Source: Lotus japonicus (lineage: Eukaryota > Streptophyta > Magnoliopsida > Fabales > Fabaceae). Taken from it: a DNA stretch of 64,000 nt. The notes under the pieces are model-generated. The model saw only the letters and a list, made by a program, of their open reading frames with translations, ran no database searches and was not told the DNA's origin. Every line of letters starts with the position of its first letter. Position 1 is the stretch's first letter. The DNA lies in contig NC_080043.1 in the NCBI RefSeq assembly GCF_012489685.1, forward strand, positions 41,865,127 through 41,929,126, given 5' to 3'. This document shows positions 32,366-60,301 of this stretch, piece after piece. A program made the position numbers and the translations under genes.

Positions 32366-34010
32366 GGAAGTAAAAAATCAATCATAATCAGCTCCTTAGT
32401 AAGGTTCCAAGGCCTATTATTAGCCCCGCTAGCCCATCCTACTGCGAGAGTAAAGTCACTCTCAATGCCAAGGTCCCGACATATTATTTGCGATGGAAGT
32501 AATTTTGACGGATTTGAGCCTCTAAGCCATGAAGCATCAAAGCTTCTAATCCTCTCGGTTTCAAACCCAGTTGTTTACCAAGTAGCCAATTTCTCTGAGC
32601 CCGAGTTGTCACTCCATCTTCCCCCTGCACATGCTCCAAAAAATCAACTGGAAGAGGTGTAGGTTTATTCTTACTTCCCTTAGGTCGCCCCCGCTGAGAG
32701 CTCTTCTTGGAGGAATTTGTGTTTGGTGAGTTCTTCACTACCGGAGTCACAGGACCAGCAGAAGCCTCAGGTTCAGGTGGGCATGTGAGAGGAAAGCACT
32801 GTGGAGAAGGCGACTGTGGAGAAGAAACAAGACGCACAGTAGCAGAAGGGATTGCACGTTGTCTTACTATTTGGTGTGGAGACGTGCGTACAAAAATGTC
32901 TGTTATTCCACGTTGCTCAGAAGTTGGCGAAGGAGCAAAAGTTGTTGTGAAACCAAAAAACCCGTTTTGTTGTTTTGATAGGGAAGGCAAACACACCTCA
33001 ACCCCATTAGTTTGAGATAAATTTCGTGGGTCCCAATGCTGTGGATTAGAAGGCCAACAAATAATTGATTTCTGAATTAAATCTTGAGCATCAAAGGAAT
33101 AACCTGTAACTGAATATCATTTGCCTTGATTTTGAATTTTTTTTATCTAAGATATGATTGCCATTAAACAAGATATCTTCTACTTTTAAATTATTCCTCC
33201 ACTCCTTGATCTCCTCTAACATATAACCAGAATCAATGAGCACCTGTAACTGCTCCTTCTGCTCCTCTCCTGAATTGATGGCTGCCACGTTTGAATTTGA
33301 ATTTTTTTTCTCAACCTGCTCACCCATACCCGACGGCCTAGGCATCTCCGTAACCACCGCCGGCTCCTCCTTCTACGCTGGAAAATTTTCCCCCTCCATC
33401 AGCACTACTCTAGCCGCAGGCAACACGCTATCTATCGCTGAAGCAGCACAGACCTGCAAGCCTTCTGTCACACCATCCCTATATGCCTCATCTTCCTCAT
33501 CTGATTCAACGTCCATGGCAGACTCGTATTCTTTGTCATGATGAATTGGCGTATCAAACAAACCCGCATCACCCTCTCCACCCTCATCCCCCATGCTTCC
33601 GTCATCGCAGCTCTCATCATTGTCTGAATTATAGATTTTGACCGGCGTCGACGGCATGACCTCTACTGTCCCATAGTCATATGCTACATGGTCCTTCTCA
33701 ACCAGAACAATGCATGTCGTTAAGGCAACATCCACCAACATAGTAAAACATTGTAGAATTGGATGGTGCATACGAACCAAGATGCGCACAAAGTCCGCTC
33801 TATGTCTCGACAAGGTTGCGGAATCAGACAACACATAAGCCCCTAGCCTATTTCCAATAGAGGTGAAGAAAGATTCATTCCACAAATCCAACGGAACCTG
33901 TCATAGACGAATCCAGACAAGTTATATAACCTTGCTCACCACTCTTAGAATATTCTTGGGAATCATTCGTCACCATTCTTGGAGAGGAAGAAAAGCCCAT
34001 CTAGAATAAC
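32366..34010 (-). pseudogene. LINE A: ORF1 and joined RNase H remnant
   Basis: Minus-strand L1-type LINE. From about 33960 leftward: a DUF4283-like segment (PLDLWNESFFTSIGNRLGAY, DFVRILVRM), then a long acidic linker, a serine/proline-rich stretch and a basic RGRPKGSKNK motif with the ORF1 end at about 32484. Directly after it, at 32470-32371, comes DLGIESDFTLAVGWASG and NNRPWNLTKELIMIDFLL, the start of a LINE RNase H domain, which continues at 21905. Endonuclease and reverse transcriptase are missing, so a large internal deletion joins ORF1 to the end of ORF2. Several stops are present. Confidence 0.72.
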
Positions 34011-34430
34011 CTAATTTATTTTTGGTATTTATTATTTATTTTCGTATTTATTAAATGATAATTATTCAAAATTAGGTATTTTTTATTATGATAACTATTA
34101 TTATTATAATTTTGAGCACTGTTTTTTTACACTTTATGTTATATAAGTTATATTAAATTAATCTTATTAAATGTAGGACAAAATTAGGTGTTCATAGAGA
34201 GGAACGATAAATCATTTGAGAAAGGAGACTGTTACCCTGCTTTTCTCTTCTTCTTTTATGGGTACTCAATCTGTTCTTGTAATTATTTGGCACTCCTTGT
34301 GCTTCTTCTTTATATATATAAATTGGCTTATGAACAAAGCATGGATTCAAATTATGCTATGGATCTTCTGGATTCATGGCTAGAGTATCATATTATGTTT
34401 CTTATAGACTCATAGTTTATATTATGCTTA
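34011..34430. other. AT-rich stretch without recognised content
   Basis: Very AT-rich up to about 34170, then a weak frame (34188-34415, plus) with no recognised motif. I see no element ends here other than the possible leader of the LTR that follows. Confidence 0.5.
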
Positions 34431-34435
34431 TTAAT

Positions 34436-34600
34436 CTTCAGGATTCATAAAAAAAATTGTCTTCCAGATCTTATAATGAATCTTCACGATTCACCAAAAA
34501 AAATGTCTTCCAAATCTTATAATGAATCTTCAGGATTCACCGAAAAAAATGTTTTCCAGATCTTCTAATGAATTTTCAGGATTTATAAAAAAAGTACACT
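34436..34600 (-). repeat. 46-bp tandem repeats
   Basis: Three and a half copies of a unit of about 46 bp containing GATTCACCAAAAAAAATGTC and TTCCAGATCTTATAATGAA, most copies with only a few differences. They lie in what would be the leader of the minus-strand LTR element starting at 34966. Confidence 0.75.
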
Positions 34601-34738
34601 ATGAGTTCTTCTGGACTGGTAGCGTTCATAAAAAAAAACTTCGAGAAGATGAGTAGAAGAAATAAAATATTACTTTGATTCTTGATGAGAATGGCTTGAT
34701 TCTTGAGGAGATTGATGAGCGGCTTCGTGCTGATAACG

Positions 34739-34966
34739 TGTTGAAAAATTAGTAAAGAGGGAGAGAGAGGGGGGGGGGGAAGAAAGGAGCAAGTGTGAGA
34801 CAAGTTGTTATGTGGAATGAGGTGTGGCTGCTTGATGCAACCTCATTTATTTATAGCACTAGAACTAGGTCAATTCAAGGGGAGGATACATATGGGCCAA
34901 ACCCACAAACTTTCTAGTGTAGCCCATATACCCAAATACATAAGGTCATCCAAACTATTCATAACA
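34739..34966 (-). repeat. probable 5' LTR of a small Copia (Retrofit-like) element
   Basis: On the minus strand: TGTTATGAATAG at 34966, a CTATAAATAAATGAGG box near 34855, and the end TTTTTCAACA at 34739. Just inside is CGTTATCAGCACGAAG, a leader form common in small plant Copia elements. A short frame starting MNATSPEELIVYF follows, then the 46-bp repeats. No partner LTR and no pol are seen, so it is a fragment. Lineage is inferred. Confidence 0.5.
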
Positions 34967-35386
34967 AGTTACTAATATTTCAAGGGATTTATCATTTTTG
35001 GCAGATATGAAACTAATTTCTGGAGGTTTAAAACCGCCAAAAGTAGCTTTATAATGGTAATGCATAATATGACATTTAACGGCAATAGTAATTGCCGGAA
35101 ATTATGGCCGCTAACATATGACGGCTTTACTGGCTGTTCTTGACGTCTTTACCGGCGTCTTGTATTATCACATATTATCTTTTTCTCTCTTCTTTTCTTT
35201 TCTCTTACCTCCAAATTTTATTCACTCAGAATGAGGTGTGAATTTATGTTTTTTTTTAATTTGACTTTACTATGTTATTATGTCTATGTAGACATACGTG
35301 CAAATGCAAGAGAAATTCAGAATCAAATTTAGAGATGGGAAGTGGGAACTGAACCACTTGGTAGACTAACGCAACATAAAATATTT
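34967..35386. other. unassigned stretch
   Basis: Contains scattered GCCGTTAAATG/ACGGC-like motifs (35040-35160) that resemble terminal parts of DNA transposons, but I could not find paired ends. No gene seen. Confidence 0.4.
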
Positions 35387-36148
35387 GGGAATTGTTATTC
35401 AGACCCCCCCAACAGCTATTCAGACCCTTCATTAATGTATGAAAAGTCATAAGTGTCCTTAATGAAAAAAATATAAAACAATCCTCACTCTCTTCACATT
35501 CTTTCTCTCTCATCTCTCCTTACCTCTTTCCTCTTTCTTCCACCCCCACCACCCAACACCACCCACCGCCACCATTGCCGCTACCGCCGCCGCTGCCACC
35601 ACCACCACCACAACCTCCATCTTCTGTCGTTTTTGAAGATATCCAACTTTAGGGAGTTGTTTCTGTCGTTTTTTTTTTCCTGCAAATAAACGCACTTTAG
35701 AAGTGCATAGTTAACGCATTGTTAACGTGCGAAGTAAACACACTTTTAAAGTGTGTTTTGCTGCAAATTTGTACATAACTAATATTAGATGATTTTTAAA
35801 AATCGTGAGACTACTAGAAGGTGTAGGAATTTGGAGATTCTAACTGCATATTTGAGCTTAGAATGATCATATTATCTTAACTAATAAGTGACAGTTCAAA
35901 ATTCCTTCCGAAAATTAAACAGGAAAAAAAAGAAATATATGTGTTGCGCTCGCACTTTGAAAGTGTGTGACTATCGCACTTTGAAAGTGTGTGACTATCA
36001 CACTTTGAAAGTGTGTGACTATCGCACTTTCAAAGTACTATAGTGACAGACTTTCAAAGTCGAGCGAAAAAAATTTATAAATGGCTTTTTTAGATTTTAC
36101 AAATTTATCAGTGTCTGAATAGCTGTGAGGGTCTGAATAACATTTCCC
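35387..36148. mobile_element. Mutator-type MITE, 762 bp
   Basis: Terminal inverted repeats of about 40 bp: left GGGAATTGTTATTCAGACCC, right (reverse complement) GGGAAATGTTATTCAGACCC, both continuing into AGCTATTCAGAC. Flanked by AAAATATTT at 35378-35386 and at 36149-36157, a perfect 9-bp target duplication typical of the Mutator superfamily. The inside has no transposase; it holds a CACC/GCC-rich simple repeat (about 35540-35620) and the 24-bp palindromic repeats described separately. Confidence 0.9.
35946..36062. repeat. 24-25 bp palindromic tandem repeats
   Basis: Four or five direct copies of CACTTTGAAAGTGTGTGACTAT, each containing the palindrome CACTTTGAAAGTG, then inverted variants (CACTTTCAAAGT). 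Related CACTTTTAAAGTGTG and CACTTTAGAAGTG occur at 35695-35760. All are inside the 762-bp MITE. Confidence 0.85.
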
Positions 36149-36937
36149 AAAATATTTTTGTGGTCAATTGAGTGAGAGATATCTTCTGTGGATTTTACAA
36201 CGCAAGATGAGGAATTTGATGACCTTTTCAGACGAACTCGACAATAACTAAATGCAATAATAAAACGGCTGGCTTTGGGTTCTTGTGCTCTGTCTTATTT
36301 GACAACTTTTAGAGTCTTAAATTATGCTTCCACGCCTTAATATTTTCTAAAATACTAGTAGTACCACCTTTTACAATTAAGGGGATAAATAAAAAGAGAA
36401 GGACGAAAAATTAAAAAAGATATGTTATAAAATAATCGATGTAATAAAACTTGAAGTCGGTAAGAAGGGTTAGAATTTTGTTTTTGGTACTTTAGAAGAT
36501 ATTTAGTAATGGATGAAATAATGGAGGGAATGTCAGAGCAATTATAACAAACATAATGAGAGATAAATGTAATTTGCCGTTAAATCAATTGTAATAAACT
36601 CTCTTTCCCTGAGAAAGACTTGCTAGTTCACCCTACACAACATCGATCCTTACAACCTTTAGTTTAAGCATCTAATAGCCTCTTTCAAGAGATTTTGCAA
36701 TTTCTAAACAGTGATTAGTAAGTTAAGTCGATCCTTACAAGTTACAAACAAGCTTCAGTTTAACCATCTTAGCCCTGTTGATTTTTCTTTTCTTTTGTTA
36801 TCAAAATGGCACTTAATTCCCCACGAACTGCAACTCCCACATCCCAGTTTGGCGTGTCCGTGGTCGAAGCATTGTTTGACCACCGTGCATTTGGTGGATA
36901 CCCTCCCATGTAGCCAGCATAGTTATTATGAGAGGTC
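36149..36937. other. unassigned stretch
   Basis: No element ends found. At 36790-36930 the minus strand reads a protein-like NNYAGYMGGYPPNARW followed by NWDVGVAVRGELS, a possible gene fragment that continues across the SINE at about 37090-37170 (YVGGYPPPTNMG). I cannot name it. Confidence 0.35.
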
Positions 36938-36948
36938 ATAACTCATAA

Positions 36949-37076
36949 GCACGTGTTCCTAAAGGTTAACTCAAGTGGTAAGAGCTAGGAGACATAAGGG
37001 TTTGGTTTGGAAGGGTGAAGGGTTCGAACTCTGAGGAACACTAATTTATTAACAACTAACATTTTCCTATAAAAAA
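36949..37076 (+). mobile_element. tRNA-derived SINE, 128 bp
   Basis: An A-box-like CTCAAGTGGTAAGAG near 36970 and a perfect B box GGTTCGAACTC at 37021-37031 form the RNA polymerase III promoter. It ends in a short A-rich tail at about 37070-37076. Flanked by ATAACTCATAA at 36938-36948 and at 37077-37087, an 11-bp target duplication. The head is not a complete tRNA gene. Moved in trans by LINE machinery, as SINEs are. Confidence 0.85.
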
Positions 37077-37087
37077 ATAACTCATAA

Positions 37088-37725
37088 CTACTGTTATGAG
37101 GGGCACTGCCATGTCAGGAGGGGGAGTTATGCCCATGTTAGTAGGAGGAGGGTAACCACCTACATAGGCCCTATTTGGTTACCAGATTCATTTTTTTTCA
37201 TTAATTGTGTGTTCACTAGTTTTTGCAAAGAAAAAGAGTCTCGAGAAATATTATTTTCCCGTTTCATACTTTTTGATTGGTAAACTAAAAGGTTAACAAT
37301 TAAGTTCGGTTTCTCTCGATCTTTTCGTCTTCTTCTAAACAGAACTTCTATTTCATTTTCTATCAAGCTGATTGAAAAAAAATCAGGTTATTAGTTGTTA
37401 GGAAGAGCATATAAGATTGCTCGGAAGGGGGGCACCCATGTTGCCAGGAGGGGGAGGAGCATATCCACTTGAATTGTTAGCAGGGAATCAACCTCAATTA
37501 TTGGGAGGGAACACCACCTGGTTTGCTTGGAGGCCTAGTCTGCATATCTCTCCGTTCACAACATAACCTCCTCAACCTCATCCCCAACCGGGACCCGCAC
37601 CCACATCGACGGCCTTAGTAATCTCAATTCTCTTAATTAGGAAGGGATTCTCTAATTGAACAATGTTGTGGGCCTATAATATTATTCCATAACAGTTTTC
37701 CCTTGTTTGAATATTTGCAGCATAA
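37088..37725. other. unassigned stretch with gene-fragment traces
   Basis: The minus strand at about 37420-37490 reads SGYAPPPPGNMGAPLPS, similar in style to YVGGYPPPTNMGITPPP at 37100-37170. Possibly exons of one glycine/proline-rich protein gene, decayed. No complete frame. Confidence 0.3.
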
Positions 37726-38340
37726 CACTACTAAGAAAACGTGATTTACCGACGGATTTTAGCGAGGGAAAATAATCTGTCGCTATTAGTGACGGAATGC
37801 GACGGATCGACGTATTGAAAATGAACATTCAGTTTTAAAATTTAGCGACGGAATTTTCCCCTCGCTAATTCCATTTTATTATATTACTTCCTCCGTTCCT
37901 AATTATAAGACCTAATACAAAAAATTGCGCTTATTAATAAAACATTAAATGTGTCTAATTAGTGTGTTGGTTTTTTAAAAATGCATACATTCTTCCATAT
38001 TTACCCTTTGTTATTTTCTCTCACTAATAAATGGTAGGTGGTAATTAAAAATTTGGAATTGAAAACACACCATTAATGTAAGGGTTATATATGGAAGAGT
38101 AGAATACTTTTTGCTAGATTATTGTTAAAGGTCTTATATTTAGGAACTAGAAAATTTTAAAACTAGGTCTTATAATTAGGAACGGATAGAGTATATTGCA
38201 ATTTGGCGACGGATTTATGCCGTCGCTGATGACCTCCCGTCGCAAATTCCCTCGGTAAATTTTATAAGAAGTTAGCGACGGAAAGCTAACAGAAATTCCG
38301 TCGCTAAATATATTGTTTTTAAAAATGAATAATTTTCCTT
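37726..38340. repeat. left sub-terminal GCGACGG repeats of the CACTA element
   Basis: Repeated (A/T)GCGACGGA motifs in both orientations at 37748-37860 and 38205-38305, interrupted by the Stowaway MITE. Confidence 0.85.
37887..38191. mobile_element. Stowaway (Tc1/Mariner) MITE, 305 bp
   Basis: Inverted ends CTTCCTCCGTTCCTAATTAT and CTCTATCCGTTCCTAATTAT (right end reversed), continuing into AAGACC. Flanked by TA at 37885-37886 and 38192-38193, the Mariner-type target. No coding capacity. Confidence 0.9.
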
Positions 38341-38344
38341 CTAG

Positions 38345-38405
38345 ATTCGAACCTGGGTCTTGTCTCCAAAAGGAGAGGCCTTAGCCATTTGAACTAGATG
38401 ATATT
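38345..38405 (-). repeat. tRNA-like / SINE-like fragment
   Basis: On the minus strand, CTAGTTCAAATGGCTAAGG resembles an A box and AGGTTCGAATC is a B box, about 40 bp apart. No target duplication or tail was found, so it is only a fragment or a chance match. Confidence 0.35.
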
Positions 38406-38589
38406 TATTGTAATATATTTTGAAATAAATGTATTTAAATTTACAAACACTACTAGGTTAAAATATCCAAACACTTAAACAATCCATTCACTCATGCTCG
38501 CTCATATCTGAAAGGGAATTGGGTTTAACACCCCAGTCCTTAGGCTTCCCGCCCAACTTAAAGTGGGGAAATTACCGGAAACCCTCCGG

Positions 38590-38650
38590 ATTAATATCGG
38601 TAAATGATTTGCCGATACGTATCGGTTTATCATTTCCCGATTCGTATTGA
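38590..38650. repeat. left sub-terminal CGGTAAAT motifs of the MULE
   Basis: Copies of ATCGGTAAATGATTTGCCG and its relatives, each nearly palindromic. The same motif is spread over 46159-46260 and 46610-46780 at the other end. Likely transposase binding sites by analogy. Confidence 0.65.
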
Positions 38651-39403
38651 TATAACAGCATCAGATAGGTTTTGAAACACATAATTTTCAAAACCCATTT
38701 CCCTCCCCAAATCACTCCCTCTCAAATCTCTCCCAAACTTGCGTTCCACCACTCCAAGCTTCGGTCCCATCATCATCAAAGCTTCCTCAAAGCACCGGAA
38801 CTCCCATTCCATTACATTCAAAAGGTAAGTTTGATTTTTATTGATTATCTCACATTGATTGATGATTAGAGGTAGTTGATGGATTATTAGGTGAATGTTG
38901 AACACTAGGGTAGTTGATTATTGATTAGAGGTAGGTTTTATTGACTGAAATGGCATGAAACGGTCATGGGCACGAGTGGGTCGTTTCCAGTTCTGGTTCT
39001 GGGTTACTGTAAAATCGGAAAAACATTTTCCGATTCTGTAATGGAAAATGTTTTTCCGATTCTGTAATGGGAAAACATTTCTCGATTGTAAACCAGTTTA
39101 AGCCAGTTTTTTTAAGCCAGTTTTTTTTAGTTTTCCTCCATCTATTGGGCTGAATATTTTGTACAAATTTTCAAATATTTTAGTGTCATGACACTGGGAA
39201 AGGGTGTTGATGGTATCGGCTTATTAGAACTAGGGAACTTCCTTAATGTTGCATTTTAGTTATCTAGATTGACAAATTAGAAAGGGTGTTGATGCTATAT
39301 GAGAGATGTTTGTTGCTATATGAGAGATGTTTGTACAAGTTGTAACTGTTAAAGTTGTTCAAGTTGTAATTTGATGTTAAATTTGTTTGCTTTTCATAGG
39401 AGA

Positions 39404-41730
39404 ATGAAGGGCGGGAGGAAGAGGTCTCGATCTTCTACAGTCGATGAAGCAGAGGATCGCCACGAGCGCTTGCATGCTTCTACGCAGCGCGGCGACCATC
39501 GAGCAGCTAGTCAGGCGGTTGAGGCTTCGGCCCCGTCTCCGTCTCCGTCTGCTACTCCGGCCGGGGCTCCGTCTCCGTGTCCGTCTGCTACAGCTCCGTC
39601 AGGTGGTCCATCTGCTACAGCTCCGTCAGGTGGTCCATCTGCTACAGCTCCGTCAGGTACTCCGGCTGAGCCTCAGCCTCATCCTACTCCGGTCTCTCCG
39701 ATGGTTGAGTTACCTCTTGAGGAGACATCTGGCGAGCAGTCTTCTTCGGAGCCCAGTGGCGAGGAGTCTGCTTCTGAGACTGCTTCTGAGGCCAGTGGTG
39801 AGGAGGAGGAGCCTCTTATTCTCCAGGAGGAGATTGATGCTGCTGATGTGGTGCCAGAGGAGGGGGCACAGGGCGATGCGGATGACGACCTCATCCAGAG
39901 GGTGGCACCGTTTCCCGGGGGGCCTGAGGATCTTTCGCTTCTTGCGCATTATCCTGACCACAAGGCTCCTTGGACGTGGCAGGCACTTCTTCGCACAGAC
40001 CCGCGGTACGTGGATCGTCGGACATTGAGGGTGGCCACTGTTGGGGGAAGGTATGGAACCTCCCCTGTGATGGCGATTCAGAGGCCCACACACATGTGCG
40101 ACAGCTGCTGCAGCAGACGGGTTTGTATCACCTGCCTTGGTGCGGGTTACCGGAGACAGACCCAGCTGTCATACTGGCCCTTGTTGAGAGATGGCATGAG
40201 GAGACGAGTAGCTTCCACATGCCGTTCGGGGAGATGACTATCACCCTGGACGATGTGTCGGCTCTTCTCCATCTTCCCACAGGGTCGAGGTTCTACACTC
40301 CGGGCAGAGGGGAGCGAGATGAGGTTGCAGCGCTCTGCGCCTAGCTCCTGGGAGGATCTGTTGCTGATTATCTGGTTGAGTTTGAGGCGGCGGGTGGCCA
40401 GAACATTCGGTTCATTACTCTGAAGGCCATGTACACGTCTGCTCTGGATGGTATGTCTTAATCATTACTTTATTAAGTTGTATTTATTTTTAGCGTATTA
40501 TTAATAACTGTTAACTTAATTCATTTCATTGTAGAGGGACGCTATGAGGATGCTGCTAGGATCTGGTTGGTGAACCAGCTTGGTGCCACCTTCTTTGCCA
40601 GCAAGAGTGGTGGTTACCACACTACTGTCTACTGGATCGGGATGCTTGAGGACCTCGGTCGCGTGTCGGAGTACGCGTGGGGTGCGATTGCGCTGGCATC
40701 GTTGTACGAACAGCTGAGTCGTGCTTCCCGCAGGAAGACAGCGCAGATCGGTGGGTTCACCTCCCTCTTGCTGTCATGGGCGTATGAGTACATATCCAGC
40801 AGCGTCATTATCAGGACGGAGGTCCCCGGCTACACACAGGACCAGCCTAGGGCGCAGCGGTGGTCCACGTCTCGGATCGCGCATTCCGGACTCGATGAGA
40901 GACGAGTCATGCTCGATGAGCTTACAGTGGATGATATCACATGGACCCCTTTTGAGGACCATCGAGATGTTCGACCGCGGGATCCCAGGGCCCTCTATTC
41001 CGGCTACATCAGGACACCCTACGGCCGGTCTGTGAGCCGACATCTACCAGAGCGGGTTATGCGCCAGTTTGGCTTCATACAGGACATCCCTCGACACCCC
41101 TCTGAGATCCAGACGACGGGGTCCCTTGCTGAGACCACAGATGCCGCCTATGCTGAGTTTGAGCCGCACCTCCGCCCTCAGGGGATACCTGCTACATATC
41201 CGGAAGAGGCGGTGGAGGGTTACATGAGGTGGTATAGCAGAGTGTCCCATGTGTTCATCATCTCTGAGGATAGGAGGGAGGCGCTTAGTGCCGTGGTAAG
41301 TTTGGATTTTAAACTTGTATATTATTTTTTATTTTTATTCATTCAATTGTGATTTTTGTTAATGAAATTATTTTTGTATATTATTTTTATGCAGTCTGCC
41401 ATACGTAGGGGTATGGAGTTGTTGGAGCAGTCCCTGGAGGTGCCAGGTGCTCTTGCTCCAGGGACACAGCCCCGAATCCTCACGGAGAGGGCGCTCGATC
41501 TCTTTCGACGGAGTTCCTTCGTTGGTACCCAGGGAGTTGCCTTTTCTGCTATTCGAGGAGCCGCAGCTGCGGGAGGCAGAGCTCGTGGAGGCAGAGCTCG
41601 TGGAGGCAGACCCCGTGGAGGCGGAGCTCGTGGAGGCAGAGCTCGTGGAGAGGGTGATCCTGGAGAGGGTGTTCGTGGAGGTCGAGCGCGTGGACCTAGA
41701 GGTCGCAGGGGGCGGGGTCGGGGAGAGTGA
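39404..41730 (+). pseudogene. Plant Mobile Domain (PMD) gene of the MULE
   Basis: Coding exons 39404-40450, 40535-41295 and 41395-41730, with good GT-AG borders (GGTATGTC...TTGTAG; GGTAAGTT...TGCAG). A leader intron from about 38825 to 39396 precedes the ATG. The N terminus is basic, then low-complexity P/S/A (near-perfect SATAPSGGP repeats at about 39590-39660) and acidic. The PMD follows: LVERWHEETSSFHMPFGEM, TITLDDVSALLHLPTG, WAYEYIS. The C terminus is a run of GGRARGG repeats, like RGG RNA-binding tails. Two lesions: a frameshift near 40045 in a G run and a TAG at 40342-40344. PMD proteins occur as host genes (MAIN/MAIL family) and inside Mutator and Gypsy elements; TE forms have unknown roles. 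It converges with the HROB-like gene. Confidence 0.8.
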
Positions 41731-41959
41731 TTTTATTACACTTGTTATGTATATGTTAGGACTTTTTATGTTATGTTATGACTCTTACCTCGTTTTATTT
41801 ACATGTGTTATATTTTTAGTCTTAATATTATGACTCTTATAATGAAAAAAACAGAAACAAAGACAACATAAATAATTCAAAGCATGTAGTAATCCATGAC
41901 AATAAGTTAAACGGTTACACAACCAAATTAAACATACATAAGCAACACCGAAAACAAAA

Positions 41960-42717
41960 TTATTCCTCTGTGATATCGATGAAGTCATGGGGTCCGCAAT
42001 CTTTTGGGAATACCTTCACTAGGTTGGGCAATGTTATATTAAGATAACAAACAGTTCCTCTAGTTGCAAACACAGCAACCTGCAAGTGAAATGTATACTT
42101 TAATTAAACCATGCTTATCTGTCCAAAAAATGAAGCAAGTTTCATGTTTAGGTTTCAGACCTTTTGGAGAACGAGAACAGATCCAACAGTTATGTCATTC
42201 GCAAATTCACTGTGAGTAAAGGCCTTGCGATGGATGCTAGCATCAATAGCACCCGTGGGGTCCTAAATTTTTGATATCGTTTGAGAAGTAAATAAGAACG
42301 GTTAGTCAAGGGGGACCAAAAACAAGGCCTTACAAAAGCAAGGACAAGACATACCTTGAGGGTAACTTTCGCATCTCCAAACCCATTGGGAGTGCAAGAT
42401 TTGATAACAGCAACAACATTCTCCACCCTCTCAACGTTCGCTGTCAGAGAGCCCAACGGAGTGGCTATTCCCCACTCTTGCAGGGCTGATAGCCAAGCAT
42501 GTGAGTTGAAATCAGGATCGGTTTCGGTTGATCCATGATCTAGCACACGCCTCACGATTTCCTGGGTCGGAATGAGTGGTGTGTTAGGGGTGGATCTACG
42601 GGCATACATGGCAGCCTGGATGGCGCCAGCCGGGCCAGGAATGAGAGGACGAGAGCGGCCAGAGTTGTTGCTTTGACCTTTGCAATGGCGGAGGAATGGA
42701 TTTGGGTCTTGTTCCAT
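41960..42717 (-). CDS. HROB/DUF4539-type OB-fold protein gene in the MULE
   Basis: Three exons on the minus strand: 42717-42355, 42262-42161 and 42079-41960, 363 + 102 + 120 nt, all in phase 0, giving a 194-residue frame with no stop. Splice sites are GT-AG (CAAG|GTATGT; TTTAG|GACC; AAAG|GTCTGA; TGCAG|GTTG). Motifs: IPGPAGAIQAAM (about residue 25), DFNSHAWLSALQEWG, VAVIKSCTPNGFGDAKVTLK, DPTGAIDASIHRK, VLVLQKVAVF, YLNITLPNLVKVF. These match the conserved N-terminal linker and OB fold of HROB (C17orf53; DUF4539), a homologous-recombination factor that works with the MCM8-9 helicase in animals. It is shorter than full plant homologues as far as I recall. The start ATG (MEQDPNPF) is the first that gives the family N terminus. 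Likely a host gene copied into the transposon. Confidence 0.78.
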
Positions 42718-43119
42718 TGTGTAGAATGAGGAGTAAGAAGAAGAGTCAAGACACAATAGACAGGAAGATGAGGAATGAAGAGTGAGAAGAAGAGGCAAGA
42801 CACAACATAGATTTATAGCTCAGGAGTGCGGTCAAAACATTTAAGGTGTACTGGTGGATGGTAGAAGAGTGGTTGGGGCTGGTGGTTGAGAGTAATGTCA
42901 GGATTGGTGGTGGAGGGTAATGAAAATGAAAATGACAAGAGTACATCAAATTAACATTACCAAAAGTACATCAAATTAACATTACCAAAAGTACACGCAT
43001 GAACCTGCCAATCTACGATGATTTCTAGGTTTTCATCATTAACAACAACCTGTGATAAGGGCCACATTCTACCAAATTACAGAGAGTTTACAAATTAATA
43101 TTACACAATACAAGAACAT

Positions 43120-46100
43120 TCAATCTGTGGTGATGTCCACATAGTCCGCATGACCACTAAAAGCACCAAGCCAAGCTTGGAATTGTGCATCATACATGCC
43201 TAAACGTGGACCATATAGGTTGCGCCAGTATTTGGAGGCAAGATCAGCGTGCCAATCCCACTGGGGAGCAATAGTCGGCATAGGATGTCCAGGAGTTAAT
43301 TGGAGCTGCATTTTAAAGAATAACCATAAAATTAGATAACTTCCACATACAAAAATTAATCGACAAGCTAGTATTAGATAACTTCCACATACAAAAATTA
43401 ATCGACAAGCTAGGCAACTAAAATATTAGAGTATTTGGTCAAAATATACCTGTACCCAGTGATTTATCACATGTCCAATAGCTATAACAGTATGCTCATC
43501 TCGTGGGCCGGCTCCTATCAGTGGAAAGTACGTGTTACAACCCATAGAGGATAAGGATACGAGAACTAATTGGTACTTTATGGCAACAAGGTATCCCATC
43601 TCTGGCAGTTGAAACCATTTGTCAGGGGTGGCCGGGTCACCAATAGGAAGAGTGAGACGATCATGTAAGCCATAAACAACATCTGTGCCCCACATCCTAT
43701 TATACATTAACACATTGGTCTCAAGTTCTTGTATCAATGTAGCCCTAACCCAAGGCCAACCGTCCTGACCGGCGGAATGCCCCATTAATGCAGCAATGGA
43801 TCTATAGCCACAGTTACCATCATCCTCAACATCTGTAATTGTGCCAATATATGGATGGAGAAAGGCTGGAAAGTTACACATGAAATGGCTTGTATCAGAC
43901 TTCTTCACACGCTTCTTCCTCTTTGCTGGTTGTGAAGACTTCTTTTCCTCTTTAATCTTCTTGTCAGTAAGTTCAAACGCTGAAGGATCACGAGTCAAGG
44001 ATCCTATTGCTCGACCCTTGGGTTGTTTGCTCTCCTTCAACTTAGGAGTGCGGTTGGACTTTATCCGAAGCTCAGGAGTACATAGTGTACTCCTTTCAGG
44101 ACAATATATCGCTTGAAGCTTCCTCCTTACCATACTCTGCCCTCCAGTATCCAAAGAATGGAAATAACGTGTCAGTGCCTCAACTTCTGGGTGCATCTCT
44201 CCATGGTTTAGTCCGCAAATATCTGAGCTGCCAGTATCTGCAACAGGTACATGCTCCCAACTTAGGCTCTTCCAGAATGGATGAATGGCCTCGTACGGAA
44301 TCCTCTCATAATCTACAAGTTCACAGACATGTTACATTGAATCACAAATATAAATAATTGGAAGTAGTTGAGAGGAGAGTGGTTGACCGGTAACCTGCAA
44401 GTTGACAACCGCAAGGTAGTCCATGAGTCTCTCTCAATAAGCAATCGCATCTACCGCCGCAGGCTCGCATTCTTGTCAGTTCAGCATCAATGAGTTTCAG
44501 GCATTTGATTGACACAAATCCCCTAATATTTGTGTAGAAAGGGGTCTTGAAAAGGTGATCAATTTTATTCATACTGTGCTCAAACGATGCTACTATCTCA
44601 GTGTGACGATTGGTGGTCAAACTATGCGACGCATCCCATGATGTGGCCAGGTCACCCTCAACATCAACTTCAAGCTGGCATGTGCACCTTCAGCCCTGCA
44701 AACCAACAACGCACATGTAAGAATTAATACTGTAATAATCTATGAAATGAAATACATATAACAAGTCATAACATAATTTTTGTACTTGTTACTTGTTGTT
44801 GTTCCAAAATGCATCACATGATTTGTCCATGCCTTGGCAAATTTCAACTTGTGTTTATGCTTGCACATGTTAAACAATTCAATCCAATGAGCTTCAAATT
44901 CTGGAACTGTTGGAGCATCTACCAATTCGGCTCACTTGTCCATAACCTCTTGAGCAAAATCATCCGTGCCAACATACTCTTTGCACTTTGCCAAAACACA
45001 CTTGTTGATGTGCCACAAGCATAATAAATGGGTGGTGGTGGGAAGGCTTTGTGAAGCAGCACTCAATAAGGCAAGATCTCTGTCTGTCACAATCACTCTA
45101 GGCAACCTGGATTGGTCGGAAATCAGAGACTTCATACACTCTAATGCCCAAATGTAGTCATATGTGGTCTCACTGCCAATGTAACAGAATGCTATTGAGT
45201 ATGTTTTATCCGTGGAGGTCAGGCCAACAATCTCGAGCAAGGGTAGTTTGTATTTGCTGGTCTTGTATGTGCAATCCATGATCACTACATATGGGAATGT
45301 GTTGAAAAGTTTGACGGCATTCGGATGAGCCCAAAATATATCTCTAATCACTTCCGATCCGGGTTCATTTCGTTCGAAGTGAACATACTTCTCACCGTCC
45401 AACTTCTTCAGCAAGTATTGTATCTCTGTCAGTGACCAACGAACGGATTGTCTGAACCGCTTGCAAACACCATAAATTTGTTGGATGGTAGTCAGGTTTG
45501 AAGGATCTTTTTCCTTCAAGGATGCCAACATCTTTCTAGGTGGAACCCAAGTCTTAGCCTGATTTATCACGTCCTCCTTCGCCTCACTATTCAGTCGACC
45601 AGCGTAATTGTGGCCAAGTAGTGACTCAGCTGCGAGATGGATGTGTCTACCGTCCTTCACCTTCAACCACCAACCTTTATCATCTTTCGTACGTCGTCCT
45701 TTTAGCCTAAAAGGACAACCTGTCTTTTGTGTTGACGTTCCTTCAACAAGATCCGGTTCTCTGTAGGGAATATACGCACCATGCTTCTCACACCCCAGAA
45801 TGACATATTCTTTTCTTCCCTTCGCACCACTATCAGACTTTGTTGTCACCAAAACAAAATTATTTGCCATAGAAATGTCGCGAACCCATTTCATAAGATC
45901 ATCTTTCAAAGGGAAACGCTGTTTCAGGATAAACAAGGCATAAGGCATAAAACAAGGTATAAACAAAGCATAAACAAAACATGCAAAAAATTGTGCAATG
46001 AGTACCTGATCAGTATGATACAAATGAGAGACATCTATAGATATAATCTGAGGTTCAACTAGTGATGGTTGCTCCTATGGATTCTCATTTTCCAATCCAG

Positions 46101-46146
46101 CAGCATGTATCAATTGTGATTCACAAAAAAAAAAGGACTCTGTCAT
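43120..46146 (-). pseudogene. MULE transposase fused to an OTU cysteine protease
   Basis: One multi-exon gene. Exon 1 is 46146-46006 (in-frame TAG at 46077-46075). Exon 2 starts at 45918 with a FAR1-type zinc region (FVLVTTKSDSGAKGRKEYV, CPFRLKGRRT), then the MULE core VVIMDCTYKTSKYKLPLLEI and RVIVTDRDLAL; a TGA stands at 44934-44932. A frameshift near 44680 precedes the SWIM finger (CDCLLRETHGLPCGCQLA), whose exon ends at 44395. The exon 44312-43450 has a basic linker (PAKRKKRVKKSD) and the OTU domain: catalytic DDGNCGYRSIAALMGHSAG and the histidine in INHWVQ. The last exon is 43305-43120. The transposase moves the element; OTU proteases cleave ubiquitin chains in other systems. Three lesions make this copy inactive as a full protein, but the OTU exon is intact. 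Confidence 0.85.
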
Positions 46147-46158
46147 CCCTGGAACAAA

Positions 46159-46790
46159 AACGGTAAATCAATAACCGACCCTATAACGGTAAATAAAATT
46201 CCGGTATTATAACGGAATATCATAATCCGATACATTAACGGAAATTCATTTACCGATGCAGTTCACGATACAGCAGCCTAAATTACCAACTTAACTAACT
46301 AAACTAACTACTTAAACTAACAACTAACTACTTAAACTAACTATAAATAAAGTACCAAAACTAACAACACTTACCAGAAGTTAAAAGCTTTCCCTTGGTG
46401 GTGGTGGTGTTGGTGGTGGTGGTGGTGGAAATGTGGAGATGGTGGTGGTGGTGGGAAGGTGAAATGTGAGGGAGGAGTGGAGTAATGGTAGAATAAGGTA
46501 GTTTGGGCGAGTTATGGGGGGCTGGTGGGGGGTTGTTGGAGGGAGGAGTAATGGTGGAGGGGTTGGTGGAGGGAGGAGTAATGGTGAAAAGGTGATCAAA
46601 CTGCCAGATTACCAATCGGTAAATGATATACCGATATAAATATACGAATCGGTTAATGATTAACCGATATTGTTCTTCTTGTTCTGGGTAATGGGATGAA
46701 GGTGTTCATACTGAGGAACAATAACGGTAAATGATTTACCGATTGGTATATTGACATCGGCATATCATTTACCGATGGGTAGTTTTGGAA
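46159..46790. repeat. right sub-terminal CGGTAAAT motifs and simple repeats of the MULE
   Basis: At least six copies of (A/T)CGGTAAATNATTTACCG-like sequence in both orientations at 46159-46260 and 46610-46780. Between them, 46390-46590 is a (GGT)n/(GGTGGAGG)n simple repeat. No gene. Confidence 0.7.
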
Positions 46791-46857
46791 TAAAAAAAAA
46801 GGCTGGGGCGCGTAGCCTAAGGGGTGGGGCGCGCCAAACCCAAATCCCTATCTGAAA

Positions 46858-47253
46858 CCTCTCGACTCTCACATATCACCGACCGTGCATACCTTCCTTG
46901 CACCGCCACCGCTCCCTCCCACGCCCAGCCGCCGCCGGCTGTAGGCCCCCCTCTCCCTCTCTCACTCCCAGCCGCTCTCTTGCTCTCTCTCTCTCCCTCT
47001 GCCACTGTTCCTCCGTTGCGCCGCCTCCAAGGCACACCTCCTCCACTTGCAAACCCTCCAGCCAACGCCTCCTTCATCTTGTGTGTCGAAGCCACACACA
47101 ACAACTTTCAAACCCCTTGGCGTGTCTGACTCTCACATGGCCGCGGCCTTCTCCTTCTCCACCGCTCGTCGCTCGCAAACCACCACAAGCTTAAGGGAAA
47201 ACTCGTGAACCCTCATCGTCCATCGTCGGTTAACGAAAACGAAAATTTCTCAG
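46858..47253 (+). other. GC-rich exon-like stretch (captured 5' region)
   Basis: CCGCC/CTCTCC-rich, unlike its AT-rich surroundings, and ends with a good donor site (CTCAG|GTAATTG at 47253). It precedes the PRP38-type exons in the same orientation, so it may be the leader or first exon of the captured gene. The frames in it show no known domain. Confidence 0.4.
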
Positions 47254-47378
47254 GTAATTGAAATTCTTCTTCTTCCGTTCACCATTTATTTTGGTAGTGA
47301 GACCATAGTAGAACCTGATGCTAGCTGAATCCTCTTCTATTGTTGTTCAATATTTACTTTCTTTTCCCTTCTATTTAG

Positions 47379-49824
47379 TTCTGTATGATGGGAACTTGAG
47401 GAACCAATTAGGGCACAAGCATGGGGAAATCGTCATCGAGTTCATAAAAAAGGAGGATTACAGGTAAGTATTTCCTCTTCTTTGCTCTTTAATTCTTTCT
47501 AATCAACGAACGAATGGTTTCTGTTTATGTGTTTGGTTTTCAGGTATGTGAGGATTCTTGGTGCTTTTTATTTGCGTCTTACTGGTTCTGATATAATGTG
47601 TATTGAACTTAGCTTTTGTGTTGTGATTGCAATGTAGTTCATAAAATGTTCAAACAAAGGAAAGAAACTTTTATCATATCTCATCTCATTCCATTTCGTT
47701 CTATTTTGTTCGCTCCATTGTATTTTATCAATGCAAACATAGTCTTAGATTAAACTCACAAGTCACAGCAATGAGATACCGAGACATGCAGAACATAAGA
47801 ATAGGCCAAAGGAAGTGATACTGACATGCAGAACATATTAGCAGCATATACTAGTATGTTAACAAAATGACAATCCAAATTTGCAAAGTAGTAATTAAGC
47901 TGTTTTATTGTTTTGTGTCCTTGTATTTTTATATAATAGGCAGAGGAGTGAAGCCTCCAGTCTGTACCATAATTGCACTTTTCTTAGATCTTATCTATCT
48001 TCCCCTTCTCCTTGTGTATCCTTACATAACCCAAACCATTGTTCTTATCGTTTTCACCTACCTTTGTGTCTCCATGTCCTTAATAGCTTGTTCCTTTCTT
48101 TTATCCCCCCTATTTTTTTATCGTAGCATGTTCTCTTCTAAAACATAGGAAAACAAAAATGGGTTTAGAAAAATGGAAGCAGAAAGTTGGAAACAGTAAA
48201 ATGAGAAACTATATTCCAACTAAAAACTTCTGCAGATTTCTATTAAGATGTAAATGCAGCTTTAAGCACTCACATAGGGTATCCCTATACCAAAAGTTCA
48301 TGAACTGATCAAAGTTACAGGGGAAAATCCAGAGTTCATTCCCCCTTTTTAGCTATATTGAATTGTTTAAATAACTGTCAAGGTCTTCCAATTTTCACAA
48401 TAGCTCCTTTTTTTTTGGTCAAGATGGGGGTTGCAGTAGCTCCAAATGACTTGTAATTACATCTGGGCAAGACTGGGCTTGCAGTAGCTCCAATCGGTTG
48501 GAAGGTGGAGCATACTGCAAAATGTAATCTTCGTCTGAAACCACCAAATAAGCATGTTAACTAACAGACAAAATGAAAGCATTTGGTCAAATAACAAACT
48601 GTATTTTGATTTGGAATTCCTGAAACATTTCATCATCCTTATGTGTTTGTTTGTGCAACAGACAAACAATGTTGATAGTGGGGTCTAAATAATACTCACT
48701 TTCTTTGACTGTTCCATAAAGCCAGCATAATACCTCGTCGGCAAATGCCAAGCAGACTCCTCCCTGCCAAAAAATGTTATGAGAAAGAAAAAAACCACAT
48801 TCAGCATTTTTTAGTATAAATACAATTTGTAATGCTTTGTCCTCTTCGGATCACATGGAATTATCCTTAATCAGCTATGCGATGGTTGATAGCACGTATA
48901 AGCACATACTAATAAAATGCTTTTATCTATCGTGCGTGTGTGCTTGTTAAGCTAATTTGTTGCTATTGGTGTTGCAGAGTTTTCGTTGACGCATGTGGAT
49001 GAGGTCATTGATGAGCTTCTCACGAAAGATTATTCCTATGATATTGCTATGCCGCGTATCAAGAGAAGGTAGTTGCCTCTGATGATTTTGGTTTGCTTTT
49101 GTGTGAAGAACTTACTTACATTACTATGTTTTATGTTTAGTGTTTAACTGATGGAAATAACTTTTTTTCTCTCACTAATTGGAGAATTCAAAGTTGAAGT
49201 AGGCTTAAACTGAGCGTCGCAATTTTGCTTCTTTTTGTTTTTGGGATGTACTTCTATTTGTCTGTCGAGGAGCATGTAGGGGTTAAAGTTGTGATTTTAT
49301 TAAATTCTTGCCCTCAGTTATCTCCTTTACATTTGAAATTGAGCTTTGAGCAATTTTCCCCGGTTGCTTTACCGTGCTTAGAAAAATAAAACATTGGTCT
49401 ACTGAGTTGTTTGCTTTGAGTAGTGCTTGGTTCGTTTGTGACTGTGAAATTGACGCTTTAGAATATAGAATACAAACATGTGATTTTGTGGTGTGAAGAT
49501 GTTTAGTTTTCGTCTTCTATGTTCTGTAGGTGGACTATTGAATCTCTTAGTACTTTAGAACCTAGGAGAAGTGCACTTGAAGAAGATTTTGAGGAGGAAG
49601 AGGAGAAAGAGGATAATGACCAGCCTGTTGATGAGGTTGAAGATAGGGCATATGAGAAGGTGCTTCCCTTTATTTCCTAATCAAATCTTATTTTTGAGAA
49701 TGTAGAAAGTGAGTTGTTCTTATATTTTGGTTTAATTATTGAATGATTTACAGGATTATTATCGTGGGCGAAGCCCTGCAAGGGAAAGAGATAGGGATAG
49801 AAGACGTGATAGTCATAGACACAG
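47379..49824 (+). pseudogene. captured exons of a PRP38-type splicing factor gene
   Basis: Exons 47379-47463, 47544-about 47600, 48978-49068, 49530-49659 and 49754-49824, with GT-AG introns still present. They read EIVIEFIKKEDYR, then YVRILGAFYLRLTGSDI; later SLTHVDEVIDELLTKDYSY, RWTIESLSTLEPRRSALEED and an RGRSPARERDRDRR tail. These are consecutive blocks of PRP38, a U4/U6.U5 tri-snRNP protein needed to activate the spliceosome. The N-terminal exons and the block between GSDI and SLTHVD (which should read through the YRYLEPL region) are missing, so it is a partial genomic copy. It is contained in the CACTA element. Confidence 0.82.
47605..48970. other. intron-like stretch between captured exons
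   Basis: AT-rich with no element ends or coding segments that I recognise. It replaces the missing PRP38 exons. Confidence 0.45.
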
Positions 49825-50211
49825 GTACTGTTTTTTCCTTGCTAGTATTTCACAACTTCATATGAATTGATGTAGATGTGAATCTTGTTATTGAAAAAGC
49901 TTTTACATTCTTTAGTCTTTACATTTGCGTATTGTTTTTCAATTTTTTTTGCTTGTGGAGGTGTATCTTGGCCCCTTGGTCTAGAATCTCAAATAAATCA
50001 CAGTTTTCTTATAATTATATGATTTTAGGAAAACTCTGAGCTTTCTTATCTGCAGATATGAATGAATTGTATTGGAAGCTGTTTTTGAACTTGCTCATAG
50101 CCACACACACACCATATAACTTGTCAAAGTTGTACTTATGTTTCCACTTTGGCATTCAGAGCCACCTGTGGTATAGAACTGTTTCCTATAGTAAAATTTA
50201 ATGACCCTGCC

Positions 50212-50297
50212 AGGTTTCTCTGCACTAACAGTGTGCAGCGAGAAGTATGATGGGTCAGACAATTATGTTGAATGGATAAATAGTGCCATGATCAAGG
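50212..50297 (+). other. exon-like fragment of unknown origin
   Basis: Between an acceptor (TGCCAG) and a donor-like AAG|GTCTTA, the frame reads SALTVCSEKYDGSDNYVEW and INSAMIK. It looks like coding sequence but does not belong to PRP38 or CDPK as I know them. The KYDGSDNYVEW part is a little like the N terminus of a Copia gag. Confidence 0.35.
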
Positions 50298-50580
50298 TCT
50301 TATGTATTGAAGAGTTGTGTTCATCCTTTTTAATACTTATTGGATCATCATCTTGCCTCTTTTCAATTCTTAATTTTCTTGATCTACTACAACCTGGTTG
50401 TTTCAGCAACTGGTTTCCCCAATTTTGATCTGTTTGTCCCCATATGCTATGTCTTATTGAAGATATGCGATTAAGGGAGTTTGACTGTATGAGTCATTAA
50501 GGGAGGTTGACTGCATTAGTTTTGATTATGATCTGTATTACCTACTATTAAGTGCCTTATGTATTTGGTGTTTGTATCAG

Positions 50581-50733
50581 AAACGGAACAAGGAATATTT
50601 GAGCAAGTTTTGAAAGAAGAGCTTGACTTTGTTTCTGACCCATGGCCAAACATATCTGAAAGTGCAAAGGACCTTGTTCGAAAAATGCTTATAAGAGACC
50701 CTAAGAAGCGGATGACGGCACATCAAGTTCTTT
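50581..50733 (+). pseudogene. captured CDPK exon
   Basis: A single exon between CAG (50578-50580) and GTGAGT, reading [17 protein letters not shown], then [16 protein letters not shown] and [13 protein letters not shown]. This is the C-terminal end of the kinase domain (subdomain XI region) of a plant calcium-dependent protein kinase. The split codon at its end (T|GT) matches the usual break before the HPW motif. No other CDPK exon is present, so it cannot make a kinase. Confidence 0.85.
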
Positions 50734-50969
50734 GTGAGTATGCATGTCTCAGTCTCATTGATGCTACATGGTTTGTTCTGAAATGCATCTTGGTTCCACT
50801 ATCACTATTTAGGGCTCTAGAGATCACTTTCAAGTAATGTAGTAAATAGTCCAGCTAAAGATAGGTTTCTTTTTCTTTCTTTACAATATTTTTTTCATGA
50901 TGACTGATTATCTGGTTATTGAATTGATATTGTACAGAAAAAAATTTCTTTCAGTTACCCAGTGGTAAA

Positions 50970-51383
50970 GTTAGCGACGAATTTTGTCCCTCTCTACCGT
51001 TGATAAATTAGAGAGGGAATGGATATAAAAATGTCAGGTAGTTAGCGACGGACACATCCGTTGCAAACAGCGACTGACTGCTACGTTCCGTCGCAAATAG
51101 CGACGGCTAGTTACTTCCGTCGTAAATAGCGACGTAATCTCCCGTCAGAAATAGCGACGGATTCATGAGGTAATCCTGTAAGCGATTTAGCGACGAAAAT
51201 ATATACGTTAGCGACGACCAGTTTCTGTCGCTAATAGCGACGGATTTAATTTTTCGTCGTTAATTTTTTAGCGACACCCCTAAACATGGCGGATGACGTT
51301 CCGTCGGTAAATCTTTTGCGACGGATTTTAGCTTATTTAGCGACGGATTTTAGCCCTCGCTAAATAGCTTTTTTTTAGTAGTG
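50970..51383. repeat. right sub-terminal GCGACGG repeats of the CACTA element
   Basis: More than ten copies of TAGCGACGGA or its complement, then the terminal repeat ending TAGTAGTG at 51383. Confidence 0.85.
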
Positions 51384-51639
51384 TATAAGATCCTTAGATT
51401 GCCAAGTTTTTAGATAACTCTCATTCAAAGTGATTAAGATCATCATACCATATTAGGTTAGAAGAGGATTGGTAGACCTATTGTCCGAGCTGAGAGTGAT
51501 ATCACTAAGTGGGTCATCTGAGGTGCTTTGAATGAGAAGAATCACATCTTATCCCAAAATGACCATTTGGTAGGGAATTCAGTGTGCACATTTTCACGAC
51601 TCGTTTAGAATTACTAAAGCATTTTTTGTAACACATTTT

Positions 51640-51700
51640 AATTTGGAGTTGCACCAGATGGATGTCAGGACCACTTGTCTGAATGGCGCTACTGAATGGG
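51640..51700 (+). pseudogene. Copia reverse transcriptase relic
   Basis: The frame reads LELHQMDVRTTCLNG, the RT block normally ending in KTAFLNG. Only this segment is recognisable, in otherwise unassigned sequence 51384-51807. Confidence 0.6.
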
Positions 51701-51807
51701 CAAGCTTTGGAGTCGTTCTTCTAAAACGTGATAAAGGACTTGTGGTAGAGTATATATATAACAATAATCTCTTTCCATCATGGCCATAGGCCCACACTTG
51801 TAACTCA

Positions 51808-52186
51808 CACTACAACATTTTTTTTCTTTCTTCAATAGTATAAAAGTGTAGCTATATACATGAAAAATATCTTTTAAACATTACACAACAGTTTTCGATA
51901 GTTTCATTTTCCAGCATTACCTATTCCTTTTGGCAACAGTTTCTCGTATACTCTGTAGTAAAATTGTGACAAAATTTAACCTATTATATGAAAAATGCAA
52001 CAATTATCATGTAATAATTGCTCCCAACTATTAAATACATAGCACTATTTAGTTTTCTAAGAAAATATTTTGCCTAAAATGAGCCCTCTATAGAAAACAA
52101 TCATGAACTGATTGTTAATGCATTTTTGGCAACAACTTAGCATGTTGCTAAAATCAATCTTATCAAAAGCAAAAAGTGTTGTAGTG
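51808..52186. mobile_element. small CACTA-type MITE, 379 bp
   Basis: Ends CACTACAACATTTTTTTTC and, reversed, CACTACAACACTTTTTGC. Flanked by TCA at 51805-51807 and at 52187-52189, the 3-bp target duplication of CACTA elements. No coding. Confidence 0.87.
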
Positions 52187-60198: not shown

Positions 60199-60301
60199 TG
60201 TAACATCCCGATTTTTGGGAGTCACTTTAGTAACTCAAAATCAAAATAAAGCATAAAAGCAGGTGTATTTTTTTTTCGTTTTTCTTTTAAAAAAAACTTT
60301 T
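60199..60301 (-). repeat. terminal fragment of a TGTAACATCCCG-type LTR
   Basis: TGTAACATCCCGATTTTTGG followed by GGAGTCACTTTAGTAACTCA. It shares this layout (GTCACTTTAGTAAC) with the inner giant LTR at 5758 and 6617. It is cut off at 60301 by the next LTR. Confidence 0.65.

Follow-up and report, generated by a model that had tools for sequence, protein, structure and literature searches.

A 64,000-nucleotide stretch of the Lotus japonicus genome (C3:41865127-41929126, referred to here as the window) contains a Mutator-like element (MULE) of 8,335 bp in which three different types of gene are found. The element occupies positions 38514-46848, is flanked on both sides by TATCTGAAA, and holds a gene for a MULE transposase with a C-terminal OTU-like domain, an HROB-like gene and a Plant Mobile Domain (PMD) gene (Table 1). 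In the order of transcription on the minus strand, the OTU-transposase gene comes first and the three-exon HROB-like gene follows; the PMD gene is on the plus strand. According to Pfam, two pieces of the PMD gene match PF10536 (E 4.7e-31 and 6.5e-15), the transposase matches PF10551 (MULE transposase, E 3e-23), and the spliced HROB-like protein of 194 amino acids matches PF15072 (E 1.3e-29, above the cut-off). Among named proteins, those matching the HROB-like protein and the transposase best are from Lotus japonicus. An earlier reading of the letters of this DNA (the sequence-only reading) had named these same genes, and these matches bear it out, the OTU domain being recognized by its predicted fold as described below. 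The firm borders that it had claimed were likewise recovered: a scan of positions 34000-52000 for exact 9-bp duplications whose inverted ends match at 15 or more of 24 bases returned the TATCTGAAA pair as the sole match, and 0 of 20 shuffles of another locus (L049), used as a control, gave any pair. The long terminal inverted repeats (TIRs) that are typical of MULEs, if not universal, are not present here. Instead, the two ends are similar across about 45 bp and imperfect, and are accompanied by subterminal palindromic units that are perhaps candidate binding sites of the transposase.

Of the three genes in the window copy, the HROB-like gene alone is open, the PMD and OTU-transposase genes being broken. 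The reading frame of PMD shifts near 40046 and is stopped by a TAG at 40342-40344. The transposase gene is interrupted at three points, by stop codons near 46077 (TAG) and at 44934-44932 (TGA) and by the loss of 10 bp near 44659. None of these five lesions is present in L040, L041 or L043, other copies in the genome that all cover the sites in question. Comparison with PDB gave no credible match for the PMD protein (best E 0.013, an unrelated aminomutase) or for the HROB-like protein. Judging by these sequences and those of the other copies, it is likely that the window contains a defective copy of a Lotus MULE family that inherits OTU-transposase, PMD and HROB-like genes as a unit.

Table 1. 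Features of the Mutator-like element, in positions of the window
Feature	Position	Strand	Remarks
Left target site duplication TATCTGAAA, 9 bp	38505..38513		exact copy at right edge
Left TIR, imperfect, ~45 bp	38514..38558	+	starts GGGAATTGGGTTT
Left subterminal palindromic units	38588..38647		~25 bp each
PMD gene	39404..41730	+	exons ~39404-40450, 40535-41295, 41395-41730
HROB-like (DUF4539 OB-fold) gene	41960..42717	-	exons 42717-42355, 42262-42161, 42079-41960; 194 amino acids, open
MULE transposase with C-terminal OTU-like domain	43120..46146	-	several exons
Exon with OTU-like cysteine protease domain	43429..44331	-	motif DGNCGYR; His in NHWVQV
Right-side subterminal repeats	46159..46244		26 bp
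Right-side subterminal palindromic repeats and inverted pair	46607..46782		inverted pair of 69 bp
Right TIR	46804..46848	-	inverted start GGGATTTGGGTTT
Right target site duplication TATCTGAAA, 9 bp	46849..46857

The genome (553.7 Mb in 65 contigs) was searched for the HROB family, and 150 of 554 candidates were scored, all of them above the cut-off and the window copy among them. Eight loci picked from these 150 for diversity were read at 10 kb (seven element copies and the host HROB locus), 4 kb were added to one locus, and one more locus was read at 9.8 kb. All three genes are present in L040, L041, L043, L044, L046+L048 and L049, and the trio occurs in four diverged subfamilies with transposase identities down to 54%. 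Full copies, which include the transposase gene, measure 8.2-8.9 kb. Perfect 9-bp duplications, all different, flank seven of nine elements (window, L041-L045 and L046+L048). No target duplication was found for L040, which lacks its outermost right end, or for L049, whose ends were looked for and not found. L046+L048 of subfamily E has 8,930 bp, 24 of 24 matching end bases and the duplication AAGTAATTG. L042 and L045 are internally deleted, without an OTU domain, and have perfect duplications; L052 is also internally deleted. The layout of the window copy, with one gene reversed, recurs in L041, L043, L044 and L049. Because similar copies occupy separate sites in the genome and have distinct duplications, we infer that the family is able to transpose. 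The sequence-only reading had suggested searching for other full copies with the same trio and different duplications, and would have taken the set for a one-off if other copies always lacked the HROB-like and PMD genes. Such copies do exist in diverged subfamilies, and members of all four carry both genes. Because other copies in the genome hold the same three genes, a one-off accumulation in the window copy is ruled out, and the trio appears to be a durable component of the transposon.

Co-location of the genes was examined on a larger scale. At the 29 non-host loci in L010-L039, PMD adjoins HROB in 28 and the OTU end is found in 22; these loci are not independent because they are the top scorers of one subfamily, and two of them, L011 and L012, belong to L044 and L045. 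Starting from the OTU domain, 130 of 132 matches were entered (two fragments of one locus being omitted), and 69 of the 130 have an HROB match downstream on the same strand, with the two starts 0.6-4 kb apart. When the matches were placed at random, the mean number of such pairs was 0.055 and the maximum in 200 trials was 2. An HROB match accompanies 47 of 72 OTU matches of at least 87% identity, with one more at 0.49 kb outside the range, and 20 of 31 matches of 67-68% identity; class counts of this kind are lower bounds because only 150 of the 554 HROB candidates were scored. Three high-identity OTU copies without a listed HROB were read, two of which turned out to have an HROB-like gene, full-length and reading in two frames in L050 and 3'-deleted in L051, while the third, L052, has none. 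In subfamily D, 13 of 18 HROB matches have an opposed PMD within 3 kb, based on HROB assignment by profile range and on 24 of 129 PMD matches.

The transposase tree has the form ((A,B),(D,E)) with support values of 97-100. PMD identities follow the same pattern (A-B 77%, D-E 62%, 56-60% across), and the HROB tree is compatible with the transposase grouping, D and E not being separated in it. Ratios of nonsynonymous to synonymous divergence (dN/dS) were obtained as pairwise counting estimates with one copy per subfamily. For the pairs B-A, B-E and A-E, they are 0.36, 0.30 and 0.42 in HROB, 0.35, 0.27 and 0.32 in the transposase exon, and 0.61, 0.47 and 0.42 in the OTU region; for PMD the estimate is 0.16, from B-A only. 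Values of at least 1 were reached in 1 per 1000 bootstraps for HROB A-E, in 2 for OTU B-A and in none for the others. Two stops in the HROB row of L046 were taken as a misalignment at an intron missing in A and B, and these codons were dropped. In the comparison of A with B, HROB introns are more diverged (0.44-0.47) than synonymous sites (0.33-0.36). By these estimates, the transposase, OTU and HROB sequences are under purifying selection among three subfamilies, as is PMD between two. Neither a premature stop nor a frame-breaking indel is present in 32 long HROB rows from 30 distinct places (window, subfamilies A and B), which taken alone is weak evidence because most of these are recent copies.

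The host HROB gene of Lotus is located at C4:83447070 (L010, inside L047), with no transposase match within 10 kb, and has an acidic N-terminus and a C-terminal WTEEQLDELLAFD. HROB sequences of the Lotus elements form one clade (100/99), which is joined with host Lotus HROB (99/97), and a loop of Sesbania and Cajanus HROB is missing from both. The DUF4539 OB fold is common to the element proteins and to host HROB/MCM8IP (PMC7290032, PMC11675949). The element proteins keep an IPGPAG block together with the OB fold, and the block before the OB fold is common to them and to Lotus host HROB. Unlike host HROB, they have lost the N- and C-terminal parts, have a new tail and are encoded by many genomic copies. 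The exon-intron layout aligns with that of the host gene, which rules out a retrocopy. Most likely, going by the alignments and the tree, HROB was captured once, with introns and thus as genomic DNA, from the Lotus host gene, and was shortened at both ends and extended by a short tail. By eye, subfamilies A and B seem to have undergone a precise loss of the intron before the tail, which is kept in E and in the host gene. Captured host gene sequence between MULE ends is a trait of Pack-MULEs; these are usually small and non-autonomous (PMC9168764), which does not describe the Lotus element. Six HROB-bearing proteins of Tanacetum coccineum (P0038, P0039, P0040, P0043, P0047 and P0079) are named 'transposase, MuDR, MULE transposase domain protein'. 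The two of these six that were placed in a tree group with other Asteraceae, apart from Lotus, and an independent capture of HROB by MULEs in Asteraceae is possible.

The OTU domain was missed by Pfam and NCBIfam, and comparison with PDB by sequence gave chance matches only. An AlphaFold2 model based on 23 rows has a mean pLDDT (predicted local distance difference test) of 75.7, with values of about 90 or higher over most of the domain. A fold search of PDB with this model gave 23 matches at E <= 0.001, every one of them an OTU domain; the best has an E of 1.8e-4 and a probability of 1.00. On the evidence of the model, the C-terminus of the transposase has an OTU fold. Across the 23 aligned rows, Asp164 is invariant and Cys167 and His284 are nearly so; we take these Cys, His and Asp residues to be catalytic by reference to known OTU motifs. 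The FAR1 domain (PF03101) had no match in the window or in Lotus P0095-P0097 and was below the cut-off in P0101 (Glycine soja) and P0103 (Psophocarpus), and SWIM was seen by eye only, as a motif. Public annotation contains near-full-length Lotus transposases in clusters of 40, 93 and 63 sequences (P0095-P0097). P0095 was aligned with 26 others, and relatives of the whole transposase occur in many angiosperms, including Glycine soja, Cicer, Melia and Perilla, some of them labelled OTU domain-containing. Several such transposases are publicly labelled 'PKS-NRPS hybrid synthetase', a label that is misleading. Because the OTU-transposase is widespread in angiosperms, the only tested part for which acquisition as new cargo in the Lotus lineage has been shown is HROB.

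The new tail of the HROB-like protein resembles the end of the transposase. In the window, L044, L049 and L046+L048, the HROB-like proteins end in FIDITED (A), FIDITEE (B), FTDITED (D) and FTNITED (E), and the transposases in YVDITSD (A), YVDITTD (B), FIDLGED (D) and DLTDITED (E). We note that a DITED-type tail is reminiscent of a SUMO-interacting motif. In subfamily E, the HROB and transposase genes are alike in 24 of 29 bases across the stop codon, with 0 of 1000 shuffles as good, and 0 of 500 shuffles were as good for E transposase against D HROB tail DNA; these shuffles overstate the case because the segments were chosen for peptide likeness. Within A, B and D, and for the cross pairs D-E, B-A, A-B and E-A/E-B, tail DNA matches only to the extent expected by chance.

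Elsewhere in the window, there are direct-repeat pairs 96-97% alike at 1-300/18959-19258 and 21906-22205/30211-30510, perhaps long terminal repeats of other elements. A tandem duplication of about 860 bp is located at 5758-7475 (unit start TGTAACACCCCGATTT, with a diverged copy of the start at 60199), and a long hairpin at 63184-63408 has 100-nt arms that are 89% complementary and separated by 25 nt.

Several parts of this element have precedents. Abermu is a published MULE family with three open reading frames (ORFs; PMC9168764), similar to the Lotus element in its size of about 8 kb, GGG...CCC ends, 9-bp target duplication and high copy number. Type I Abermu has three ORFs, with ORF2 in the direction of the transposase and ORFR opposed, as in the window and the four copies sharing its layout, and Ka/Ks is <1 for all three ORFs, as with the Lotus genes. 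The two are likened by layout and not by sequence, and Abermu TIRs have 138-145 bp compared to about 45 bp in the Lotus element. The functions of ORF2 and ORFR are called unclear by the authors, and the terms 'plant mobile' and 'protease' are absent from their text (PMC9168764). A PMD inside a MULE, as in the Lotus element, has also been described, and was proposed to be captured, perhaps as anti-silencing cargo (PMC5418596). In the grass and Amborella elements of that study, PMD-C and the transposase form a fusion, whereas the Lotus PMD is a separate gene. In MuDR, with mudrA and mudrB (PMC3276141, PMC9168764), the transposase and a second gene are opposed, as in the window; the Lotus element differs in having PMD as the opposed gene and another gene between the two. 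Among the titles and abstracts listed, with subscription journals mostly outside the search, we found no report of a combination of PMD, HROB and OTU-transposase and no paper joining HROB to a transposon. The sequence-only reading knew of no described element combining the three; a three-ORF layout as such had already been shown by Abermu. Its central idea of one mobile element with three gene types as an element-level set is upheld, with the qualification that OTU-transposases are widespread and the layout is known. Its suggestion that the repair protein and the deubiquitinase-like domain could act on double-strand breaks or on host factors is conjectural. As far as these searches go, the recruited recombination gene is what is new, and they turned up no other MULE lineage that retains a host recombination factor as a component under selection.

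A cut-and-paste element gains a copy when its excision gap is refilled from the sister copy. In the mechanism that we propose, the transposase would cut and paste the element, and the trimmed HROB-like protein would promote extended repair synthesis, by which the excision gap is refilled from the sister copy and copy number rises. The PMD protein would counteract host silencing, and the OTU domain would remove ubiquitin from the transposase or a host factor. We put forward the gap-refilling role tentatively, by analogy with human HROB. This protein binds single-stranded DNA and activates the MCM8-9 helicase, and long-tract gene conversion depends on it, being defective in HROB-deficient human cells (PMC7290032). 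The internally deleted L042, L045 and L052 are compatible with aborted gap repair. It is possible, if far from assured, that a host recombination factor has become a permanent, working component of a plant transposon lineage and steers excision-gap repair toward self-copying, with the tail perhaps tying HROB to the transposase and with PMD and OTU dealing with silencing and ubiquitin.

A number of observations speak against an inherited and working trio. No copy that was read is shown to be open in all three genes (intron stops are not told apart from exon stops in L046+L048 and L049): L040 and L041 have lesions in PMD, L041 also in OTU, and L043 is open in PMD and HROB and has a stop inside the transposase. 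In L046+L048, one strand carries PMD, transposase and HROB in succession, so that the PMD of subfamily E is on the opposite side of the transposase and reads inwards from the other element end. By its position, this could be a second acquisition. Two OTU classes have hardly any HROB (1 of 16 at 69% and 1 of 11 at 70-78% identity, again as lower bounds) and may well lack it, and L052 has kept its OTU-transposase and has no HROB. Finally, the element HROBs compared are without the acidic N-terminus of the host and without the conserved C-terminal WTEEQLDELLAFD. In human HROB, acidic N-terminal motifs bind RPA (PMC7290032); with the acidic N-terminus lost, the captured protein may not do the job of the host gene.

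The same loss makes a different role a serious rival, namely an antagonistic one, in which the HROB-like protein would bind MCM8-9 or single-stranded DNA as a trimmed decoy and so block repair or silencing by the host in the vicinity of the element. Retention of the IPGPAG block and OB fold alongside loss of both host ends, including the part that binds RPA in human, would suit such a decoy, but the transposase-like tail equally suits a recruited helper, and we regard the decoy as doubtful. Rather unlikely in our view is an assembly of the trio on more than one occasion, in which recombination would have carried HROB from one MULE family to another and E would have acquired its PMD separately. 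The position of PMD in L046+L048, where it flanks the transposase on the opposite side and is read in the same direction, would fit this, as would the lack of separation of D and E in the HROB tree and the synonymous divergence between E and B, which is lower for HROB (0.74) than for the transposase (1.18); against it, transposase and PMD group alike, HROB is compatible with them, and the element HROBs compared have a common truncated end and similar tails. That the extra genes are passengers captured by chance and carried without function, as in Pack-MULEs, is improbable, even though MULEs are known to capture host gene fragments (PMC9168764), two genes are broken in the window copy, and HROB is partial in L014, L017, L023 and L042 and damaged or missing in L050-L052, because dN/dS between subfamilies is well below 1 for HROB, as it is for the transposase, HROB introns have diverged more than synonymous sites, and the long HROB rows, for what recent copies can tell, are without stops or frame breaks.

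The authors of the Abermu study considered it unclear how the copy number of those cut-and-paste MULEs had become so high and pointed to P-element gap repair (PMC9168764). A MULE that keeps a gene for recombination-linked DNA synthesis would offer a testable answer to this question, in the form of gap refilling aided by the element itself. The source HROB gene is still present in the same genome and allows a direct comparison. If the proposed recruitment is true, it would be a case of a host gene taken into a transposon under selection, the reverse of the usual domestication.

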